DNA of 64,000 nt, from positions 1 to 64,000 of the forward strand of contig NZ_CP009755.1 of NCBI RefSeq assembly GCF_000772085.1. The letters are read 5' to 3'. The notes beneath the pieces are model-generated. The model saw only the letters and a list, made by a program, of their open reading frames with translations. It was not told the origin of the DNA and ran no database searches. Every line of letters starts with the position of its first letter. The first letter of the stretch is position 1. Shown in pieces: positions 11,267 through 35,133 of this stretch. The DNA comes from Curtobacterium sp. MR_MD2014 (GTDB lineage Bacteria > Actinomycetota > Actinomycetes > Actinomycetales > Microbacteriaceae). The position numbers and the translations under genes were made by a program.

Positions 11267-11340
11267 GGGGCTATAGCTCAGGCGGTTAGAGCGCTTCGCT
11301 GATAACGAAGAGGTCCAAGGTTCAAGTCCTTGTAGCCCCA
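11267..11340 (+). tRNA. tRNA-Ile (anticodon GAT)
   Basis: A cloverleaf is complete. The acceptor stem pairs GGGGCTA (11267-11273) with TAGCCCC (11333-11339). The anticodon stem CTTCG/CGAAG encloses the loop with GAT at 11301-11303, and the T arm contains GGTTCAAGT. The discriminator A is 11340 and the CCA end is encoded (11341-11343). The tRNA-Ile/tRNA-Ala pair after gyrA is conserved in actinobacteria. Confidence 0.97.
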
Positions 11341-11375
11341 CCACTTCCCACCGGGACCAGTACGCTGGTCCTCAC

Positions 11376-11448
11376 GGGGCCTTAGCTCAGTTGGTAGAGC
11401 GCCTGCTTTGCAAGCAGGATGTCGGGAGTTCGATTCTCCCAGGCTCCA
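11376..11448 (+). tRNA. tRNA-Ala (anticodon TGC)
   Basis: The acceptor stem pairs GGGGCCT (11376-11382) with AGGCTCC (11441-11447) and shows the G3-U70 wobble, the identity element of alanine tRNA. The anticodon stem CCTGC/GCAGG encloses TGC at 11409-11411. The CCA end is not encoded. It lies 32 bases after the tRNA-Ile CCA, so the two are probably co-transcribed. Confidence 0.97.
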
Positions 11449-11754
11449 CTCCCTCAGGGCGGATACTGCTCCGCTCGTTCCTCGCTCCGCCGGTTTCGGT
11501 CGTCGTGTTCGTCGGCGCCTCCGGCGCGCCGCTCCGCGATGGTCGCCTTCTTCCGGGCGTTGCCGCTGCGGGATGGTCGTCTCGGTCGTCTTCGGGCGAG
11601 GGGTGCTGCCGCTGCGGGCGTTCGGCCCGGCGCTGGCGCACGACATGCCGTCTGTGGTGCTTCGACGCGGCATGTCGTGGCACCTGGGCAAGCGACGGCG
11701 GCATGTTGCGCGACGGCGCATCAGCGGCTGACGGGATGAGGGCGTGCCTCCAGT

Positions 11755-25021: not shown

Positions 25022-25105
25022 GCGCGAGTGGCGGAATTGGTAGACGCGCACGGTTCAGGTCCGTGTGCTGGAAACGGCGTGGGGGTTCAAGTCCCCCCTC
25101 GCGCA
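25022..25105 (+). tRNA. tRNA-Leu (anticodon CAG)
   Basis: The acceptor stem pairs GCGCGAG (25022-25028) with CTCGCGC (25098-25104). The anticodon CAG is at 25056-25058 inside a CACGG/CCGTG stem. A long variable arm follows, as expected for class II leucine tRNA, and the T arm GGGGG/CCCCC is perfect. CCA is encoded at 25106-25108. Confidence 0.97.
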
Positions 25106-25113
25106 CCAGGTGA

Positions 25114-25380: not shown

Positions 25381-26376
25381 ATGCGGACGTCGTCCGTGAC
25401 CGCTGCCGTGGTCGCACTCGGGACCGCGCTCGTCGCGGTCGTCACCACCAGCGTCGGGGTCGCCCCCGCGCACGCCGCGCCGTCGTGCCGCGGTGACCGG
25501 ATCACGGTCGCCGAGCTGTCCGGTGGCTGCGTCGTCGCGTCCGGCTCGGTCGTGCTCCCCGACGGTCGCGTCTTCGCGGTGCCCGACGCCGGCACGACGG
25601 TGACGGCGCTGCCCGTGGCGACGACGACCGGTGGTGACCCCGGGGACGCCTCGGTGACGAACACCGGCGCGGCAGGCATCGCCGTGGCGATCGACGGCCG
25701 CTGGTCCGGCGCCCCTGCTGCCGTCCGGCGGGTGCTCGCACTGCGCGAGGGCCGCGTCGCCGCCGGGCACGACGCCGGTGCGGGTGCGGCCACGACCGGC
25801 ACCGGATCGGCGGCCTCGAGCTGCACGGACCGGTCCTACACGCTCCTGGCGTACCGCTGGACGAGGGACGTCCGGTGGTGGTCGAACCCGACGGGAGCGA
25901 AGGCGGCGGACCGCGTGGCGATCCGCGCGGGTGCGACGGCGTGGAGCGGACGGCTCGGGACCTGCGGGCGCTCGATCACGTCGAGTGCCGCGAACACCTG
26001 GGTCAGCACGACGGCGAGGACCCCCGCGGTCTCGAGCACCGGGGGCTGCGGCGACCCCGACCGTCGGAGCGTCACCGGCTGGGGCTCCCTGCCCGCGGGC
26101 ACGCTCGCGACCACGTGCGTGTGGTCGCAGGACGGCATCGCGGTCGAGGCGGACCAGCGCTACTCGACCCGGTACGCGTGGTCGTCGACGGCGACGTGCT
26201 CCGGGAACCGGTACGACCTGCGCGGCGTCGCGACGCACGAGTGGGGGCACGCGTACGGCCTCGGGCACACCGCAGCCTCGTCGGCCCTCGTCATGAAGCC
26301 CGCGGCCGCGCCGTGCGACGTCGCCCAGCGCAGCCTCGGGCTCGGGGACGCCCTGGGCATCGACGCCCGGTACTGA
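25381..26376 (+). CDS. Secreted metzincin-type zinc metalloprotease
   Basis: This 331-residue product starts with a Sec signal peptide (about 1-32, ending AHA-A). It ends in a metzincin catalytic site, HEWGHAYGLGH at 286-296, with a Met-turn candidate at Met305 in VMKP. The region 38-145 is an unassigned N-terminal domain, perhaps a propeptide. Several cysteines (37, 50, 148, 195, 223, 246, 273, 312) could form disulphides outside the cell. GGAGGACCC precedes the ATG. It resembles matrixin-like (M10/M43-type) peptidases; the exact family and substrate are not clear. The gene stands alone between tRNA-Leu and gntR. Confidence 0.82.
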   Translation: MRTSSVTAAVVALGTALVAVVTTSVGVAPAHAAPSCRGDRITVAELSGGCVVASGSVVLPDGRVFAVPDAGTTVTALPVATTTGGDPGDASVTNTGAAGIAVAIDGRWSGAPAAVRRVLALREGRVAAGHDAGAGAATTGTGSAASSCTDRSYTLLAYRWTRDVRWWSNPTGAKAADRVAIRAGATAWSGRLGTCGRSITSSAANTWVSTTARTPAVSSTGGCGDPDRRSVTGWGSLPAGTLATTCVWSQDGIAVEADQRYSTRYAWSSTATCSGNRYDLRGVATHEWGHAYGLGHTAASSALVMKPAAAPCDVAQRSLGLGDALGIDARY

Positions 26377-26457
26377 CGATCGCCACCGGTGCCAGGCGCC
26401 GGCGCACACCGGCCACCGCCGCCGCGGGACGCGCAGGTCGCGGGACCCTGCACTCTC

Positions 26458-26463
26458 TAGGAT
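26458..26463 (+). promoter_or_regulatory. -10 element giving a leaderless gntR transcript
   Basis: TAGGAT ends seven bases before the gntR ATG at 26471, and no ribosome-binding site is visible. This spacing is the usual mark of leaderless mRNAs in actinobacteria. Confidence 0.55.
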
Positions 26464-26470
26464 CGACCGC

Positions 26471-27187
26471 ATGACGAGCACGATGCCGGGCTTCGGCTCC
26501 GCGCGGATCACCCAGATCGGGTTGCGCGACCGCGTGTACGACCGGGTGCTCGAGGTGCTCATGGGGCACGACGTCGAGCCCGGGATGCGCCTGTCGATCG
26601 ACGGTCTCGCCCGGACGCTCGGCGTCTCCCCGACCCCGGTGCGCGAGGCCCTCGTGCAGCTCGAGCGGACCGGCCTGGTCACGCGCGAGGCCAACAAGGG
26701 GTACCGCGTCGCGCCGCCGCTCGCCGGCGACCAGCTCGAGGCGCTGTTCGACGCGCGGCTCATCGTCGAGAGCGGGGCGGTCGAGCTCGCGGCACGCGGG
26801 GACGTGGACGTGCTGCGGGAGCGGCTCGCTGCGGCGCTCGCCGAGCAGGAGGCCGTGGCCGCCGAGGTCGCCCGGGTCGGCGCCCGCCGTGCGTCCGAGG
26901 AGCTGATGGCCCGGTTCTTCCGCTCCGACTGGCGGTTCCACCAGCTCGTGTTCGACGCGACGAGGAACCCCTTCCTCGAGGAGATGTCCGCGATCATCAC
27001 GACGCGGGTGCACCGCATGCGGCAGATCGTCGAGGGCGGGGACGACGACACCGAGCGGGCGGTCGCCGAGCACCGTGCGGTCCTCGATGCCCTCGCCGTG
27101 GACGCGCCCACGGCCGTGGCGGCGATGCGGCACCACATCGACGCGGTGCGGGTGCGCTCCCGGGCCGACGCGTCACACTCCGCCTGA
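26471..27187 (+). CDS. GntR-family (FadR/FCD) transcriptional regulator
   Basis: The 238-residue protein has an N-terminal winged helix-turn-helix (about 18-82) with SIDGLARTLGVSPTPVREAL, and an all-helical FCD ligand-binding domain (about 90-225). In that domain, histidines in the WRFHQ, EHRAV and MRHHI segments are placed like FCD metal ligands. Such regulators usually bind a sugar acid or organic acid. It lies immediately upstream of the eight-gene sugar-acid-like locus, and a 16-bp palindrome at 27223-27238 lies between them. It is therefore the probable local repressor. Confidence 0.88.
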   Translation: MTSTMPGFGSARITQIGLRDRVYDRVLEVLMGHDVEPGMRLSIDGLARTLGVSPTPVREALVQLERTGLVTREANKGYRVAPPLAGDQLEALFDARLIVESGAVELAARGDVDVLRERLAAALAEQEAVAAEVARVGARRASEELMARFFRSDWRFHQLVFDATRNPFLEEMSAIITTRVHRMRQIVEGGDDDTERAVAEHRAVLDALAVDAPTAVAAMRHHIDAVRVRSRADASHSA

Positions 27188-27222
27188 CGGAACGGGGTTG
27201 CGCTCTGACTCAGCGCGAGTAT

Positions 27223-27238
27223 CTTTCCTATAGGAAAG
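27223..27238. promoter_or_regulatory. Perfect 16-bp palindrome, candidate GntR operator
   Basis: CTTTCCTATAGGAAAG lies 40 bases before the GTG of the first catabolic gene, in the only promoter-sized gap between gntR and the operon. It is unusually A+T-rich for this genome, consistent with an overlapping promoter. Confidence 0.6.
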
Positions 27239-27277
27239 AGGTTCAAGGACGAACCGCGTGATGCAAGGGAGCACTCC

Positions 27278-28276
27278 GTGAGCACACTGCAGGACTGGGT
27301 CGAGCAGGACTGGGACCCGGACAGCTGGACCGACCGGACGTGGCCGATCGCCGTCTGCCTGCACGGCTTCGACCGGGTCACCCGGGACGGCACCGCCTTC
27401 CACGACGCCCCCGTCGAGGTGTGGGACGACGTGTTCGCCCAGATCGCCGCAGCGGGCTTCTCGCTCGCCGAGCTGGCCGACAGCCACATCCGCCCCGCGG
27501 ACCTCGAACGGTCCCGGCGCGACGAGCTCTTCGCGGTCGCGGCGGCCCACGGCGTGGGGATCCCGTCGGTGCACCTGCAGCGTCGGAGCGTGATCCAGCC
27601 CGGGCACGAGGAGGAGAACCTCGCCTACGCCCACCGCACGATCGACGCGGCGGCCGAGTGGGGCATGCAGGTGTTCTCGACCGGACTGCACCAGCCGTTC
27701 TCGGAGGCCCAGCAGCGCGCGCTCTGGTTCTGGACGGCTCCCGGGCCGAAGGACCCCGAGGACCCCGACGTGTGGGACGCGGCCGTCCGACGCCTCCGCG
27801 AACTCGGGGAGCACGCGGCGAGCGTCGGCCTGCCGATGGCCCTCGAACTGTACGAGGACACCTACCTCGGCACCGCGGACAGCGCGGTCCGGCTCGTCGA
27901 GGAGATCGGGCTCGACACCGTCGGTCTCAACGCCGACGTGGCGAACCTCGTCCGCCTGCACCGTCCGGTCGAGGACTGGCGGGAGCTCTTCGCGAAGACG
28001 ATGCCCCACACGAACTACCTGCACGTGAAGAACTACACGCGCGACGAGGCGGGCGACGGCAGCTGGGCGACGAGTGCGCCGAGCACGATGGAGACCGGGC
28101 TCATCAACTACCGCCAGGTCCTCCGGGACGCGGTCGCCGACGGCTTCCGCGGGATCGTCATGACCGAGCAGTACGGCGGGGACAGCCTCGGCGTCTGCGC
28201 CACCAACCAGCAGTACATCCGGTCGGTGCTCGCCACGACGAGCATCGGCACGAAGCACGGAGGAGCAGTCCGATGA
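27278..28276 (+). CDS. Xylose-isomerase-like TIM-barrel enzyme (isomerase or sugar-acid decarboxylase)
   Basis: This 332-residue AP-endonuclease-2/xylose-isomerase-like TIM barrel shows metal-site features: ALELYEDT (about 187-194), LNADVANLVRLH (about 212-223), LHVKNY (about 249-254) and MTEQYGGD (about 294-301). The family includes sugar isomerases, epimerases and the 3-oxo-isoapionate decarboxylase type. GGGAG lies 7 bases before the GTG start. It is the first gene of the operon; its stop overlaps the next ATG. With a 3-hydroxyacid dehydrogenase next door, decarboxylation of a 3-oxo sugar acid is plausible, but isomerase activity is equally possible from sequence alone. Confidence 0.75.
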   Translation: MSTLQDWVEQDWDPDSWTDRTWPIAVCLHGFDRVTRDGTAFHDAPVEVWDDVFAQIAAAGFSLAELADSHIRPADLERSRRDELFAVAAAHGVGIPSVHLQRRSVIQPGHEEENLAYAHRTIDAAAEWGMQVFSTGLHQPFSEAQQRALWFWTAPGPKDPEDPDVWDAAVRRLRELGEHAASVGLPMALELYEDTYLGTADSAVRLVEEIGLDTVGLNADVANLVRLHRPVEDWRELFAKTMPHTNYLHVKNYTRDEAGDGSWATSAPSTMETGLINYRQVLRDAVADGFRGIVMTEQYGGDSLGVCATNQQYIRSVLATTSIGTKHGGAVR

Positions 28277-29226
28277 GCACCCTCGACATCGCCGTCGTCG
28301 GGTCCGGGTACATGGGCGGCGGGATCGCCCAGGTCCTCGCCCTCGCCGGTCACACCGTCCGCATCGCCGACGTCTCGGCCGAGATCGCGCAGCAGAACCT
28401 CGAGCGGCTGATCCGCGAGACGGGCCAGTTCGTCGCCGACGGCCTGTTCCCGGAGGACGCCGTCGCGCGGGTCACCGCGCACCTCAGTGCCGCCGAGTCG
28501 ATCGAGGCCGCCGTCGCGGACGCCGACTTCATCGAGGAGGCGGTCCCCGAGAAGCTCGCGATCAAGCACGAGACCCTGCGTCGGATCAGCGCCGCCGCCC
28601 GACCCGACGCCGTCATCGGCTCGAACACGTCGACGATCCTCATCGAGAGCCTCGCCGAGGCCGTCACCGGTCCGGAGCGCTTCCTCGGCGTGCACTTCTC
28701 GAACCCGGCGCCGTTCATCCCCGGTGTCGAGCTCATCCCGCACCCCACCACCGGCGAGCACGCCGTCACCGTCGGCGAAGCAGTCGTCGCGGCGACCGGC
28801 AAGCAGTCCGCACGGGTGCAGGACTCGACCGGGTTCGTGCTGAACCGCCTGCAGTACGCCCTGTTCGAGGAAGCATCGAAGATCGCGGACGAGGGCATCG
28901 CCAGCCCCGACGACATCGACACGATCGTCCGGACGACCTTCGGGTTCCGCCTGCCCTTCTTCGGCCCGTTCGCGATCGCGGACATGGCGGGACTCGACGT
29001 CTACGCGTTCTGCTTCGAGTCGCTGCAGACCCGCTGGCCCGAGCGCTTCGCCACCCCGCCGACGCTGCAGCAGCACGTCGACGCCGGCGAGCTCGGCACG
29101 AAGACCGGATCGGGCTACCTCGACGTGCCCGCCGACCGCACGCCGGAGCTCGTCGCCTACCGGAACAGGGCCTACGTCGCCATGCAGGAGCTCCTCGACG
29201 AGCTCGGCCCGGCCCCGATCCACTGA
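28273..29226 (+). CDS. 3-hydroxyacyl-CoA dehydrogenase-family oxidoreductase (sugar-acid 3-dehydrogenase type)
   Basis: The 317-residue protein has the N-terminal NAD site VVGSGYMGGGIA (about 8-19), EEAVPE (about 91-96) and SNTST (about 117-121). The catalytic-histidine region VHFSNPAPFIPGVEL is near 140-155, and a C-terminal helical domain begins about 190. It lacks any CoA-ligase or thiolase neighbours, so fatty-acid oxidation is unlikely. Relatives such as L-gulonate 3-dehydrogenase oxidise the C3 hydroxyl of sugar acids, which suits this operon. ATGA overlap with the preceding gene shows coupling. Confidence 0.8.
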   Translation: MSTLDIAVVGSGYMGGGIAQVLALAGHTVRIADVSAEIAQQNLERLIRETGQFVADGLFPEDAVARVTAHLSAAESIEAAVADADFIEEAVPEKLAIKHETLRRISAAARPDAVIGSNTSTILIESLAEAVTGPERFLGVHFSNPAPFIPGVELIPHPTTGEHAVTVGEAVVAATGKQSARVQDSTGFVLNRLQYALFEEASKIADEGIASPDDIDTIVRTTFGFRLPFFGPFAIADMAGLDVYAFCFESLQTRWPERFATPPTLQQHVDAGELGTKTGSGYLDVPADRTPELVAYRNRAYVAMQELLDELGPAPIH

Positions 29227-29237
29227 AGGAGCACGCG

Positions 29238-29999
29238 ATGCGCAACGAGCAGCAGACCGTCGTCCTCACCGGCGCGGCGTCCCCGCGCGGCATCGGCCGT
29301 GCGACCGCCCACCACCTGGCCGAGCAGGGCTGGAACGTGGGGATCGTCGACCTCGACCAGGCCGCGAGCGAGGCCGTCGCCGCCGAACTCCGCGAGCAGC
29401 ACGGCGTGCAGGCCGTCGGCGCGGGCGCGGACGTCGCCGACGAGGCCGCCGTCCGGGCCGCCTTCGACACCATCGAGGCCGGGCTCCCGCCGATCGCGGC
29501 ACTCGTGAACCTCGCGGGTGTCTCGTCGGCGCACGCCTACCTCGACCTGCCCGAGGGGGAGTGGCACCGGGTGCTGAGCATCAACCTCGACGGGGTGCAC
29601 TTCGCCGGTCTCCGGGCAGCCGAGTCGATGGTGCGGAACGGGTACGGCCGCATCGTCAACCTGTCGTCGGTCTCCGCGCAGCGCGGCGGCGGGACGTTCA
29701 GCAAGACGCCGTACTCGGTCGCGAAGGCCGGCGTGATCGGCCTCACCCGCGGGATGGCCCGCGAGCTCGGGCAGCACGGCGTGACGGTGAACGCCATCGC
29801 GCCCGGCCCGATCGACACCGACATCATGGGCGGCACCCTCTCCGAGGAGCGCAAGGCCGAGATGGCTGCCGACGGTGTCATGCCGCGCATCGGCACGCCG
29901 CGGGACGTCGCCGCCGCGGTCGCCTACCTCGTCAGCGCCGACGCCGGGTTCGTGACGGGTCAGACCCTGAACGTCGACGGCGGCCTCTACATGCACTGA
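29238..29999 (+). CDS. Short-chain dehydrogenase/reductase
   Basis: A classical SDR of 253 residues: the cofactor glycine motif TGAASPRGIG (about 11-20), NLAG (about 91-94), catalytic Ser in NLSSVS (about 140-145) and YSVAK (about 157-161). The C terminus GQTLNVDGG is typical. An Asp after the second strand (VDLD) suggests NAD preference. It lies 11 bases after the dehydrogenase with GAAGGAG upstream. It probably oxidises a polyol or sugar-acid hydroxyl in the same pathway; the substrate cannot be read from sequence. Confidence 0.85.
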   Translation: MRNEQQTVVLTGAASPRGIGRATAHHLAEQGWNVGIVDLDQAASEAVAAELREQHGVQAVGAGADVADEAAVRAAFDTIEAGLPPIAALVNLAGVSSAHAYLDLPEGEWHRVLSINLDGVHFAGLRAAESMVRNGYGRIVNLSSVSAQRGGGTFSKTPYSVAKAGVIGLTRGMARELGQHGVTVNAIAPGPIDTDIMGGTLSEERKAEMAADGVMPRIGTPRDVAAAVAYLVSADAGFVTGQTLNVDGGLYMH

Positions 30000-30072
30000 A
30001 CCCGACGGCACGCACCGGAGCCGACGGCTCCGACCACCAGAACGACCACTCATGATCGCGAAGGAGCGATTC

Positions 30073-31461
30073 GTGTCCGCAAGCAGCCCCGCCCTGGGGT
30101 CCACCCACGACCCGGCACTGAGGTCCGCGATCGCCAAGGCGACCAAGCACCTCATGCCGATGCTGGTCATCCTGTACTTCGTCGCCTTCCTCGACCGCAC
30201 CAACGTCGGCTTCGCCGAGGAGGCCCTGAGCGTCGACCGGAACATCTCCGACGCGGCCTTCGCCCTCGGCGCCGGCATCTTCTTCATCGGCTACGCGATC
30301 TTCGAGATCCCGTCCAACCTGCTGCTCAAGCGCTTCGGGGCGCGCTTCTGGCTCGCCCGGATCGCCGTCACGTGGGGCATCGTCGCCGCACTGTTCTCGT
30401 TCACGACGAACGACACGATGTTCATCGTCCTGCGCTTCCTGCTCGGTGTGACCGAGGCGGGACTGTTCCCGGGCGTGATCATGTACCTGTCCGAGTGGTT
30501 CCCGAACAAGGTCCGCGTGCGGATGTTCGCGATCTTCTACCTCGCGCAGCCGTTCTCGCAGATGATCGGCGCACCGCTGTCCGGCGGGCTCATCAGCGTC
30601 GGTGACCAGGTCACCCCGTTCCACGGCTGGCAGGTCATGTTCTTCGGCGAGGGCATCCTCGCGGTGCTGGCCGGCGTCGCGGCGCTGTTCTTCCTGACGA
30701 ACAGCCCGCAGCAGGCGAAGTGGCTGGAACCGGGGGAGAAGCAGTCGCTCACCGCGGCGATGGACCGTGAGGACACCGCCCGCACCGAGGACGGCCCGGA
30801 GGGCATCTGGAAGGCGATGGCGAGCGGCCGCGTCTGGTACTTCACGATCATCTACTTCTGCCTGCAGGTCGCCGTGTACGGCACGACGTTCTACCTGCCG
30901 CAGCAGGTGTCGTCGCTGCTCGGGCAGGACGTCGGCTGGCAGGTCGGCCTCGTCGCGGCGATCCCGTGGCTCGTCGGCCTGGTCGCCTGCTACCTCGTCG
31001 GGTCGAAGGCCGACACCGTGGGTCGTCGCCGCCGCTGGGGGACGATGTTCTACATCACGACCGGGCTGTCCATCCTCGGGTCGGCGTGGGCGGGTGCGAA
31101 CGGCCAGCCGGTCCTCGGCATCCTGTTCATCACCCTCGCCGTCGCGAGCTTCCTGGCGGTCGGCCCGATCACCTGGGCCTACCCGACGGCGTTCCTCACC
31201 GGTGCGGCGGCGGCCGCGGGCATCGGCCTGATCAACTCGCTCGGCAACCTCGGTGGCTTCGTCGCCCCGATCATGCGCACCGCGATCAACGAGGCGGTCC
31301 CGACCGACAGCGGGGCCTTCGGCATCGTGTCGCTCGGCGTCCTGGCGTTCGTCGCCGCCGTGATGATCTCCTGCACCAGGTTCTTCCGGGGCGCGAAGGC
31401 CGACGAGCTGCTCGACACCTCGCACGTGGCCACCACCTCGACGAAGGGGACGACGCGATGA
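30073..31461 (+). CDS. MFS transporter, anion:cation symporter (sugar-acid) type
   Basis: Twelve membrane segments and MFS signatures DRTNVGFA (after helix 1) and the cytoplasmic loop after helix 2 are visible in this ~462-residue protein. The helix-1 [13 protein letters not shown] pattern is characteristic of the ACS group, which imports tartrate, gluconate/galactonate and similar acids. I chose GTG 30073 because AAGGAG at 30061-30066 lies 6 bases upstream; the ATG at 30052 has no site. Its stop overlaps the kinase ATG. It likely imports the operon's substrate, which argues for an acidic sugar. Confidence 0.85.
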
Positions 31462-33191
31462 CCCGGTTGTACAACGACCCGGCAGCCTTCGCCGACGAGG
31501 CCACCGACGGCTTCGTCGCGGCGAACGAGCGGTGGGTCCGCAGGGTGCACGGCGGTGTCGCCCGCGCGACCACCAGTCCGGACGGCACGGTCGCCGTCGT
31601 GATCGGCGGCGGCTCGGGGCACTACCCGGCGTTCGGCGGTCTCGTCGGGCACGGGCTGGCCGCCGGCGCGGCGATGGGGAACCTGTTCGCCAGCCCGTCC
31701 GCGCAGCAGGTCGCCGCGGTCTGCCGTGCCGCCGAGCACGGTGGCGGCGTGCTGCTCAGCTACGGCAACTACGCCGGCGACGTGCTGAACTTCGACGCCG
31801 CGGCCCGCACGCTCGAGGACGAGGGCATCCCCGTCCGCACGGTCCGGGTGACCGACGACGTCGTGTCCGCCCCGGCCGGTGCCGAGGCCGACCGGCGCGG
31901 GATCGCGGGCGACCTCTGCGTGTTCAAGGTCGCCGGGGCCGCGGCCGAGCAGGGACGCCCGCTCGACGACGTCACCGCCGTGGCGGCCCGCGCGAACGAT
32001 CGGACCCGGAGCTTCGGCGTCGCGTTCTCGGGCTGCTCGCTGCCCGGTGCCGAGGAGCCCCTGTTCGAGGTGCCCGAGGGACGGATGGCGATCGGCATGG
32101 GCATCCACGGCGAACGCGGCATCGACGAGACCGACGTGCCGAGCGCCGACGGTCTGGCGGCGCTGCTCGTCGAACGGCTGCTCGACGAGGTGCCCGCGGG
32201 CGTCACGGTCGAGGGCGCCCGGGTGGTCCCGGTGCTCAACGGACTCGGCAGCGTGAAGTACGAGGAGCTCTTCGTCGTCTACGGCTCGGTGCAGCGACGG
32301 CTCCGGGACGCCGGTGTCGTGATCGTGGAGCCGGAGGTGGGCGAGCTCGTCACGAGCTTCGACATGGCCGGGGTCTCGCTGACGCTGTTCTGGCTCGACG
32401 ACGAGCTCGAGGAGCTGTGGTCGGCACCCGCGGACACGCCCGCCTTCCGCAAGGGCGGGGCGGTCCCGCAGGAGCGGGTCGCCGACGACGTGGTCGCCGC
32501 CGACGAGGAGGGCATCGTGATCGGTCCGGCGGGCGACGACTCGCGTGCCGCGGCCGGTCGCATCGCAGCGGGCATCAGCGCCGTGCGCGCGGTGCTCGAC
32601 GACCACGCGGACGAACTGGGCCGCATCGACCAGGTCGCGGGGGACGGCGACCACGGCATCGGGATGCAGCGCGGGTCGCACGCGGCGGACACCGCCGCCG
32701 CGGACGCGCTCGCTCGGGGCGCGGGAGCGGGGACGCTCCTGCGGGTCGCGGGCGACGCCTGGTCCGACCGGGCAGGCGGGACGTCCGGTGCGATCTGGGG
32801 TGCCGCCCTGGAGGCGCTGGGTCGCGTCGTCGGGGACGACGCGCGTCCGACGTCGGCGACGGTCGCGGACGCGGTGCGGGCCGCCACCGAGGCGGTCCTG
32901 GCCTTCGGGGCGGTGCCCGGCGACAAGACGATGGTGGACGCCCTCGTCCCCTTCGACGAGGAACTGCGGCGCCGGCTCGAGGCCGGCGATGCCCTGGACA
33001 CCGCGTGGCGGACGGCGGTGGACGCCGCCCGCCGGGCAGCGGACGCCAGCGCGGACCTGCTGCCGCGGAAGGGCCGCGCGCGGACGCACGCGGAACAGGC
33101 CGTCGGGACCCCCGACCCGGGCGCGGTGTCCTTCGCGCTCGTCGTCGAGACCCTGACGGCGACGATCGACGAGGAAGGAGTGGACGCATGA
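31458..33191 (+). CDS. Dihydroxyacetone-kinase family DhaK-DhaL fusion (tetrulose kinase candidate)
   Basis: This 577-residue single-chain kinase has DhaK (about 1-330) with [10 protein letters not shown] at 50-59 and the substrate-binding His217 in GIHGERG. The DhaL ATP domain (about 360-575) carries GDGDHG at 395-400 and a Mg-site GGTSGA. Relatives phosphorylate dihydroxyacetone or, in erythritol/threitol and apionate pathways, L- or D-erythrulose. The adjoining RpiB- and TPI-like isomerases favour erythrulose. Overlaps the MFS gene and the RpiB gene by 4 bases each. The far longer open frame upstream is a shadow of the MFS gene. Confidence 0.85.
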
Positions 33192-33691
33192 CGCTACGAC
33201 TGGTGGTGGGCTCGGACGACGCGGGCTTCGACTACAAGGAGGTCATCAAGCGGGACCTCGAGGCCGACGACCGCGTGGCCAGCGTGGTCGACGTGGGCGT
33301 CGACGCGGACGGCCACACGGCGTACCCGCACGTCGCCGTCGATGCCGCCCGGATGGTCGCGGACGGCGAGGCCGACCGGGCGATCCTGGTCTGCGGCACC
33401 GGGCTCGGCGTCGCGATCAGCGCGAACAAGGTGCCCGGCATCCGGGCCGTCACGGCGCACGATTCGTTCAGCGTCGAGCGGTCGGTGCTGTCGAACGACG
33501 CCCAGGTGCTCTGCATGGGCCAGCGCGTGATCGGTGTCGAGGTCGCCCGGCGGATGGCGAAGGAGTGGCTCGGGTACACGTTCGACCCGTCGAGCGCGAG
33601 CGCGGAGAAGGTCGCCGCGATCTGCGGCTACGACGGCTCCGCGCCGGTCGGCACCGACGCCCCTGGGGACGGGACGGACCCGGGCGCATGA
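33188..33691 (+). CDS. RpiB/LacAB-family sugar-phosphate isomerase (erythrulose-4-phosphate isomerase candidate)
   Basis: The 167-residue protein is an RpiB-family aldose-ketose isomerase with the catalytic Cys69 in [13 protein letters not shown] and the phosphate-binding GIRAV block. The N-terminal motif usually read D-H-x-G-F is D-D-A-G-F here (Asp10-Asp11), a change from ribose-5-phosphate isomerases. It overlaps the kinase and the TPI-like gene by ATGA. In known tetrulose pathways an RpiB relative (EryI/DerI) converts D-erythrulose-4-phosphate to D-erythrose-4-phosphate; that is the favoured role. Confidence 0.82.
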
Positions 33692-34449
33692 CGATCGTCG
33701 GGGTGTCGCTGAAGATGTACTTCTCGCACGCGCAGACGCTCTCGTGGGCGAGCGCGGTGGCGGACATCGCCCGGCGGCACCCCGCGGTCGCCGCCGGCGC
33801 GGTGGAGCTCTTCGTCGCGCCGACCTTCCCCGCGCTCGTCCCGGTGCGCGAGCTGCTCGCCGGGTCGGGCATCCGGCTCGCCGCGCAGGACCTGTCGGCG
33901 TCGGACGAGGGCGCGTCCACCGGCGAGGTGTCCGGCGCCGAGCTCCGCGAGATCGGCGTCGACCTCGTCGAGATCGGGCACGCCGAGCGGCGCTCCCGGT
34001 TCCACGAGACGGACGAGGTCGTCGCGCGCAAGGTGCACGCGGCCTTCCGGCACCACCTCGAACCGCTGGTGTGCGTCGGCGAAGCTGTCCGCGCCTCCCG
34101 TGCGGAGGCCGTGGCGGAGGTCACCGGGCAGCTCGACCGGGCGCTGGCGGTGGCCGCGGAGGCCGGGACGACCGGACGGGTCACCGTGGCGTACGAGCCC
34201 GTGTGGGCGATCGGCGCCGCCGAGCCGGCGCCGCACGAGCACGTCGTCGGGGTCCTCGAGGGGATCGAGCAGTCCCTGGCGGCCCGGCCGGCGTTCGCGG
34301 GGTCGCGGGTGGTCTACGGCGGCAGCGCCGGACCGGGGCTGCTCACCCGGGGACGCGGACGGATCGGCGGAGTGTTCCTCGGGCGCTTCGCGCACGAACC
34401 CGCGGCGGTCGGTGCGGTGCTCGACGAGGCGGCGGCCCTGGCCTCCTGA
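33688..34449 (+). CDS. Triose-phosphate-isomerase-family enzyme (erythrulose-1-phosphate isomerase candidate)
   Basis: This 253-residue TIM barrel keeps the catalytic Lys9, His98 and Glu170 (AYEPVWAIG). It departs from housekeeping TPI in SLKMYF for the usual NWKMN, GHAERR for GHSERR, and an altered C-terminal phosphate loop. Those are features of the EryH/LerI branch acting on L-erythrulose-1-phosphate. It is the last gene of the operon, coupled to the RpiB gene by ATGA. The longer in-frame start at 33565 would overlap RpiB heavily and is rejected. A central-glycolysis TPI is expected elsewhere in the genome. Confidence 0.82.
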
Positions 34450-34461
34450 CCGGGTCGCCGG

Positions 34462-35133
34462 TCACCCCTCCCGGGCGCCCGCCAGGCCGTGGTCGTGCGC
34501 GTAGACCACGAGCTGCACCCGGTCGCGGAGCTCGAGCTTGCCGAGGATGCTCGAGATCTGCGACTTGACGGTCGACTCGGTGACGAACTCCTTCGCCGCG
34601 ATCTCGGCGTTCGAGAGCCCTCGGGACGCCCACCCGAAGACGATGCGCTCCCGGTCCGTCAGGGTCTGGAACGCCTCGGGCTGGGGAGCAGGGGCTCGGT
34701 CGACGTCGGCGCCGAACAGCTGCGACAGGTCGTTCGGGGCGATCACCGAGCTGCCCTCGTGCACGGCCCGCACCGCGGCGAACAGGAACGGCGGTGTCGT
34801 GTCCTTGAGCAGGAACCCGCTCGCACCGAGCCGGATCGCGGTGGCGGCAGCGGGGTCGAGGCCGAACGTCGTGAGCACCACCACGCGGGGGAGCGGCCCC
34901 GGGACGGCGCCGGAGAACAGCTGGCGCACCGTCTCGACGCCGTCCATCCCGGCCATGCGCATGTCGAGCAGGACGACGTCGGGCCGCAGCTCCCGGACGC
35001 GGTCGAGGGCCTCGGCGCCGTCCGAGGCCTCGCCCACCACCTGCATGTCGGGCTGCGCGTCGAGCACCACGCGCAGGCCCGCCCGGAAGAGCGCCTGGTC
35101 GTCGGTGAGCAGGATGCGGATCGGGTCGGTCAT
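34462..35133 (-). CDS. NarL/LuxR-family response regulator
   Basis: The 223-residue protein has a receiver domain with Asp11-Asp12, phospho-acceptor Asp57 in LLDMRM and the conserved LLKD lysine near 108. The C-terminal LuxR helix-turn-helix (about 160-220) shows LTDRERIVFGWASRGLSN and STVKSQISSILGKL. Its start overlaps the kinase stop (ATGA), so the two form a two-component pair. It converges on the TPI-like gene with a 12-base gap and no visible terminator. Target genes are unknown. Confidence 0.92.
   Translation of the reverse strand: MTDPIRILLTDDQALFRAGLRVVLDAQPDMQVVGEASDGAEALDRVRELRPDVVLLDMRMAGMDGVETVRQLFSGAVPGPLPRVVVLTTFGLDPAAATAIRLGASGFLLKDTTPPFLFAAVRAVHEGSSVIAPNDLSQLFGADVDRAPAPQPEAFQTLTDRERIVFGWASRGLSNAEIAAKEFVTESTVKSQISSILGKLELRDRVQLVVYAHDHGLAGAREG

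Follow-up and report, generated by a model that had tools for sequence, protein, structure and literature searches.

A GntR-type operon of Curtobacterium sp. MR_MD2014 with a predicted route from C5 sugar acids to erythrose-4-phosphate

Described systems and the Curtobacterium operon

The operon described here lies in the first 64,000 nucleotides (the window) of the genome of Curtobacterium sp. MR_MD2014 (NZ_CP009755.1), a single contig of 3.44 Mb. Several described systems resemble it in part. Tetritol catabolism in Mycobacterium smegmatis reportedly uses a LerK/LerI/DerI tail, and D-apionate catabolism reportedly runs through ApnO, OiaC, LerK, LerI and DerI. Threonate and erythronate pathways use a DUF1537 kinase, LtnD and PdxA2. 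The chemistry of LerK, LerI and DerI and the use of these enzymes in E. coli are covered in excerpts of PMC10733421, and PMC11747546, in excerpts, names the D-apionate oxidoisomerase and does not give its family.

Like tetritol catabolism, the window operon brings together a kinase, a special triosephosphate isomerase (TPI) paralogue and an RpiB paralogue, but its head consists of a 3HCDH-family dehydrogenase and a TIM barrel. With the D-apionate pathway it shares the same kind of tail and an oxidoreductase beside an AP_endonuc_2 barrel (loci L151–L153 and L237), whereas that oxidoreductase belongs to another family and the barrel is only 19-21% identical (251-255 aligned positions in L151–L153). 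As in the threonate and erythronate pathways, oxidation and decarboxylation would turn an acid into a ketose phosphate, but in the window operon phosphorylation would follow the loss of CO2. No DUF1537 kinase or LtnD-like gene was found among the Pfam matches of the operon genes; LtnD-like and DUF1537 genes occur near the barrel in relatives. Non-phosphorylative pathways via 2-keto-3-deoxypentonate also act on pentonates, but they start with a dehydratase (both according to excerpts of PMC6336799), and none is present in the window operon.

The operon is a known tail joined to a possibly new head around an unassigned barrel subfamily. A head of 3HCDH enzyme and barrel with this tail was not described in the literature searched, which left out Huang 2015 (tetritol catabolism) and Carter 2018 (D-apionate pathway). 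Within the same literature, the suggestion of a preliminary description of this DNA that the 3HCDH-family oxidising step may be new still stands. The eight genes, all on the plus strand, have the content given in that description (gene calls and Pfam). Judged from these genes, the operon is probably GntR-controlled and catabolic, and would convert one or more C5 sugar acids, most likely L-pentonates, to erythrose-4-phosphate.

The fused DhaK-DhaL kinase scored 732.6 bits with NF011049 (cut-off 492) and, together with the TPI and RpiB paralogues, makes up the LerK/LerI/DerI gene set. That the two isomerases are paralogues, as had been proposed, was borne out by a further TPI (39-40% identical) and a further RpiB (27-29% identical) in the genome. 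The further TPI sits in an apparent gap-pgk-tpi array (neighbour names read from protein starts), and the genome also has a split DhaK/DhaL pair. A second fused kinase (54% identical) lies with an RpiB gene at 2.55 Mb (L164). The window RpiB (33188-33661) and this copy (~2552614-2553114) were 97.5% identical in DNA over 474 bp, and identity dropped at both gene ends in an ungapped comparison. As the RpiB copies are this alike and the neighbouring kinase proteins only 54% identical, recent copying or gene conversion is indicated. L164 (2542000-2561500) also holds SDR, alcohol-dehydrogenase-like and MFS-like genes and a regulator reading as SorC type; it is perhaps a tetritol or D-erythrulose locus.

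The operons L151, L152 and L153, from two genomes of the same family and one of the same class, fit the D-apionate pathway outlined above. In them, a PGDH_C oxidoreductase and a different AP_endonuc_2 barrel accompany the kinase, RpiB and (L152 and L153 only) TPI genes, and L151 also has an SGL lactonase and a LacI regulator. We take the PGDH_C protein to be ApnO and the adjoining PF01261 barrel to be OiaC, yielding L-erythrulose. Their tails were 61-64% (kinase), 73-74% (RpiB) and 54-55% (TPI) identical to that of the window. In L237 (genome G110), a PdxA-barrel operon adjoins a PGDH_C operon, and both have a kinase, an RpiB and a TPI of their own. In a TPI tree, the window TPI was apart from canonical TPIs and in one clade with the TPI of the L237 PGDH_C operon (support 99/99); the special TPIs did not separate by operon type (3HCDH, PdxA or PGDH_C). 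A TPI fragment of L150 was nearer to the canonical TPIs (support 80/94). Membership of the window operon in the D-apionate pathway itself was rejected, since PGDH_C (PF16896) had no match in this genome and the operon barrel is so distant (a barrel was sought at the operon only).

The TIM barrel and its partner enzymes

A single scan gave at least 581 relatives of the barrel. Among the matches listed, the closest barrels in named genomes were from Curtobacterium (up to 91% identity). Among 299 family genomes, an even sample of a larger group, the barrel profile (E <= 1e-60) matched 76, the 3HCDH query (E <= 1e-60) matched 63 and both matched 56 (Fisher p 1.3e-35, uncorrected for relatedness). 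Of all 67 3HCDH matches, 54 were within 6 kb of a barrel. All of these were among the 58 matches with >=55% identity, and 44 of the 54 were within 200 bp; the nine matches below 55% were all away from any barrel. The other four matches with >=55% identity were one in G149, one in G147 with the barrel on another contig, and a second copy each in G141 and G268. Among the named-genome loci compared, the best 80 of the at least 581 relatives (25 of the 80 from Curtobacterium), no more than 200 bases separated the 3HCDH gene from the barrel in 71. The two enzymes form a conserved pair, a unit. Outside the family the barrel is patchy: a phylum-wide search (E <= 1e-40) found it in 4 of 346 genomes, including its own.

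The window barrel was 40-41% identical over the barrel to 5TNV, a magnesium-containing structure of a xylose-isomerase-like barrel from M. smegmatis whose title gives no function; the conserved motifs were alike. It has the full-length similarity and the residues (E190, D220, H249, E297) of the 5TNV subfamily. They are proposed metal-site residues, and in 5TNV they would bind the magnesium. The 3HCDH enzyme has the 3HCDH_N and 3HCDH domains of its superfamily and S120, H141, E153 and N191, presumably the sites of the catalytic Ser, His, Glu and Asn of 3-hydroxyacyl-CoA dehydrogenases. A hydroxybutyryl-CoA dehydrogenase was its better PDB match (1.1e-45), ranking above 3f3s (7e-32) and 3ado (4.8e-31), so lambda-crystallin (L-gulonate 3-dehydrogenase) was rejected as the closest relative.

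The dehydrogenase is exchangeable around the common barrel. In the 20 barrel genomes with no 3HCDH match, nine had PdxA near the barrel (L229, L231, L232, L233, L236, L237, L240, L242, L246), three a threonate/3-hydroxyisobutyrate (HIBADH)-type enzyme (L228, L230, L235), three an SDR (L238, L241, L243) and one an isocitrate/isopropylmalate-type enzyme (L239); the dehydrogenase type was checked by Pfam in L228, L238, L239 and L241. Four had no recognised adjoining dehydrogenase (L234, L244, L245, L247), and in L234 and L247 the barrel match was only 35% identical. Homologues of the window SDR (45-63% identity) adjoined the barrel in four loci lacking 3HCDH (L238, L241, L243, L255). In the named loci, PdxA was within 200 bases of the barrel in 4 of 80 and ~3 kb away in L121 and L125; L098 had both 3HCDH and PdxA, and L122, L123 (cut by the contig end) and L130 had neither. 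Three annotated loci on rhizobial plasmids read GntR-PdxA-TctCBA-barrel-DhaKL, with no 3HCDH; the kinase of L055 was found by tblastn in two pieces. A Streptomyces locus (L058) combined barrel, kinase, RpiB, GntP and an L-threonate-dehydrogenase-like enzyme; it is one of three unannotated plasmid records (with L053 and L057), read via our own gene calls or tblastn only. The dehydrogenase families found beside the barrel act on hydroxy acids and, in most cases, oxidise the beta carbon relative to the carboxylate.

The transporters near the barrel varied as well (ACS-type MFS, TctABC and GntP); these are separate families that carry acids. The best NCBIfam model for the window carrier was TIGR00893 (D-galactonate transporter), at 276 bits and under the cut-off of 395. 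SGL-type lactonase genes were near the barrel in L024, L250 and L251 and another SGL type in L234, L244, L247 and L253. Amidohydro_2 proteins akin to L-fuconolactonase were near it in L200, L138, L240, L242, L250 and L251, and the two that were scanned were under the curated L-fuconolactonase cut-off. As several dehydrogenase and acid-transporter families stand beside the same barrel, the common step is most simply the decarboxylation of a 3-oxo acid.

The TPI counts bear on the same step. Special TPIs, defined by E <= 1e-45 to the window TPI, were present in only 93 of the 299 family genomes, yet in 52 of the 53 with a close barrel-3HCDH pair. In the 53rd (G009), the special TPI was split into two pieces that overlap, its reading frame broken (G009:C1:1138535-1139217); gene decay or a misassembly may be the cause. 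A separate search covered 19 barrel genomes, 18 with no TPI in the locus examined and G116, whose locus was left out; all 19 had the special TPI (G009 fragments counted) plus a canonical one. The special TPI was present in all nine PdxA genomes and missing from two of the three threonate-type, one of the three SDR-type, the isocitrate-type and three of the four unrecognised genomes. We read this variation with dehydrogenase type to mean that L-erythrulose routes need the TPI and D-erythrulose routes do not. The barrel is common to both, which again argues for decarboxylation as its step. Of the 80 named loci, only 50 had an RpiB gene close to the barrel.

Taken further, the barrel might be a general 3-oxo-pentonate decarboxylase and the hub of an undescribed modular route, in which at least five dehydrogenase and three acid-transporter families feed erythrulose and erythrose-4-phosphate, with L-xylonate and L-lyxonate as the natural substrates alongside L-threonate in plant-associated Actinomycetota. 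This proposal is tentative, and we consider it possible rather than probable. If true, it would give a function to the structure 5TNV. The step proposed here for the window barrel already offers a testable function for the large subfamily to which 5TNV belongs. One probable decarboxylation step with interchangeable dehydrogenases and transporters also aids the prediction of sugar-acid pathways from gene neighbourhoods.

Proposed route and rival explanations

In the proposed route, the MFS carrier would import the sugar acid, and the 3HCDH-family enzyme would use NAD to oxidise it at the C3 hydroxyl, giving a 3-oxo acid. The SDR is proposed as a second entry dehydrogenase that would perform the same oxidation on another isomer; a GolD/DthD-like polyol dehydrogenase was rejected for it (NF005309: 153.8 bits, cut-off 286). 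The barrel, with its metal at the four residues named above, would remove CO2 to give L-erythrulose. By analogy with relatives whose LerK/LerI/DerI chemistry is published, the kinase would then form L-erythrulose 1-phosphate, the TPI paralogue would convert this to D-erythrulose 4-phosphate and the RpiB paralogue would yield D-erythrose 4-phosphate. The preliminary description gave the SDR no role but had otherwise outlined the same logic, which fits the conserved pair, the exchange of dehydrogenases and transporters and the similarity of the tails; each catalytic step stays a prediction.

For this pathway, the substrate must be a C5 acid whose C3 hydroxyl is secondary and free. The special TPI points to L-erythrulose and hence to L-pentonates as the most likely candidates, all four of which would give L-erythrulose. 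L-xylonate and L-lyxonate from plant ascorbate are perhaps the substrates; ascorbate breakdown in plants leads to L-threonate, L-xylonate and L-lyxonate (excerpts of PMC6225978 and PMC11066805). A DUF1537 match was found in 11 of 15 loci examined (three only 31-35% identical) and also in L090. DUF1537 kinase and L-threonate-dehydrogenase-like genes were seen near the barrel operon in L014, L027, L090, L099, L100, L102, L105, L110 and L118. Such neighbours suggest a joint use of C4 and C5 acids. GH51 arabinofuranosidases were near the pair in L030, L033, L034, L035 and L039, mostly with apparent ABC sugar carriers. L088 and L114 had GH39 genes there; in the 80 named loci, GH51 was found in none and GH39 in two. 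These glycosidases suggest L-arabinonate derived from L-arabinose as a further hypothesis.

The GntR/FCD regulator is probably the repressor of the operon and would bind TCCTATAGGA, the core 10-mer of a perfect palindrome (CTTTCCTATAGGAAAG), 39 bases 5' of the first enzyme gene. A GntR match was present in 74 of the 80 barrel loci, some of them distant in similarity. The palindrome, which the preliminary description does not mention, had no match with up to 3 mismatches in 100 shuffles of the window (mean 0.00). The core 10-mer occurs once in the 3.44-Mb genome, where base composition predicts ~0.5, and is informative by its place and not by its number: in 69 of the 80 named loci it stood no more than 300 bp before the barrel gene; of the 68 loci having a kinase, 37 also carried it upstream of that gene, and in L098 it preceded PdxA-Tct too. 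Away from the locus, it was found at a second, PdxA-type barrel operon (L200) and at a complete barrel operon (L207). Other off-locus palindromes, those of G652 and G017 and three of the four in G658 (L201–L204, L206), had neighbours with no evident tie to the pathway.

A number of observations weigh against the proposed route. Of the 76 barrel genomes, 20 had no 3HCDH match and nine no special TPI, and in G149 the 3HCDH gene was 2.5 Mb from the barrel. The window RpiB was above the cut-off of the generic actinobacterial RPI model (TIGR02133: 204 bits, cut-off 168.2) and below that for D-erythrulose-4-phosphate isomerase (NF051858: 149.5 bits, cut-off 240), a model whose name suggests a rhizobial origin. 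The GH51 and GH39 genes beside some barrel loci hint that sugars, and not acids, are imported there. The exact 10-mer was found in 33 of 42 genomes searched and missing from 9, and a backward control pattern matched 10 of the 42. The 10-mer was also present at L-fuconate-like operons with related GntR proteins (L199, L205). This makes the palindrome weaker evidence for a single regulator; what it marks may be a subfamily of GntR proteins that regulate sugar-acid genes, and not solely the route from sugar acid to erythrose-4-phosphate. The fold neighbours of the barrel were mostly isomerases and ketose 3-epimerases, and one of them (5h1w) was solved with L-erythrulose. No decarboxylase was among the best 50 matches listed in each of two fold searches, which excludes nothing.

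These fold neighbours would suit a barrel that acts in the same route as an isomerase or epimerase, either converting a 2-oxo acid to its 3-oxo isomer, the reaction of OtnI, or interconverting D- and L-erythrulose, with decarboxylation spontaneous or performed by the dehydrogenase. PdxA-type and isocitrate-type dehydrogenases, which often decarboxylate by themselves, adjoin the barrel, and it is also paired with threonate-dehydrogenase-type enzymes, which oxidise C2. However, with a D/L-erythrulose epimerase the special TPI would not be needed. Nearly all pair genomes retain it, and this function is therefore disfavoured. The 3HCDH head would still need a decarboxylase, as we know of no 3HCDH enzyme that decarboxylates. 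Overall, we regard an isomerase or epimerase as unlikely. If the substrate were instead a branched C5 acid, an isomer of apionate or isoapionate, the operon would be a variant apionate pathway. The tail shared with the PGDH_C operons, the juxtaposition of both operons in L237 and the motifs LExYE, DxxN, HVK and EH, kept in both barrels, speak for this. The missing PGDH_C match and the low identity of the barrels speak against it, and the C3 of apionate is, by chemical reasoning, a tertiary alcohol that a 3HCDH enzyme could not oxidise, so that only isoapionate would fit; we consider this decidedly unlikely. A C6 acid such as L-gulonate, oxidised at C3 and decarboxylated to a pentulose, appears highly improbable. 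L-gulonate 3-dehydrogenase is a 3HCDH-family enzyme, the window enzyme does match 3f3s and RpiB proteins normally act on pentose phosphates. But the hydroxybutyryl-CoA dehydrogenases are better matches, the operon contains no pentulose-phosphate aldolase or epimerase and a TPI-type isomerase would have no evident place, although it accompanies the pair almost throughout. We therefore prefer decarboxylation of a 3-oxo-pentonate by the barrel.

Operon layout and genomic setting

The 4-base overlaps that had been described as joining most genes were found at four of the seven junctions; in gene order, the intergenic gaps are 90, -4, 11, 52, -4, -4 and -4 bases. The features are given in the table.

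Table. Genes and putative operator of the operon at 26471-34449 (window positions)
Feature	Position	Strand	Domains or remark
GntR/FCD-type regulator	26471-27187	+	PF00392 + PF07729
Perfect palindrome, probable GntR operator	27223-27238	.	39 bases 5' of barrel start codon
AP_endonuc_2, xylose-isomerase-like TIM barrel; proposed metal-dependent 3-oxo-pentonate decarboxylase	27278-28276, GTG start	+	
3HCDH-family NAD dehydrogenase; proposed pentonate C3 dehydrogenase	28273-29226	+	3HCDH_N + 3HCDH, PF02737 + PF00725
SDR dehydrogenase; proposed second entry dehydrogenase, other isomer	29238-29999	+	PF13561
ACS-type MFS carrier (MFS_1); proposed sugar-acid importer	30052-31461	+	PF07690
Fused DhaK-DhaL kinase (Dak1-Dak2); proposed L-erythrulose 1-kinase, LerK type	31458-33191	+	PF02733 + PF02734
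RpiB paralogue (LacAB_rpiB); near-copy of gene at 2.55 Mb	33188-33691	+	PF02502
TPI paralogue (TIM, triosephosphate isomerase)	33688-34449	+	PF00121

A promoter scan of 26300-34700 gave no sigma-70-like site, which is uninformative. On the 3' side, the operon is followed on the opposite strand by a response regulator and a histidine kinase. A tRNA-Leu gene (25022-25108) lies shortly 5' of the operon, and tRNA-Ile and tRNA-Ala genes are close together at 11267-11449 of the window.

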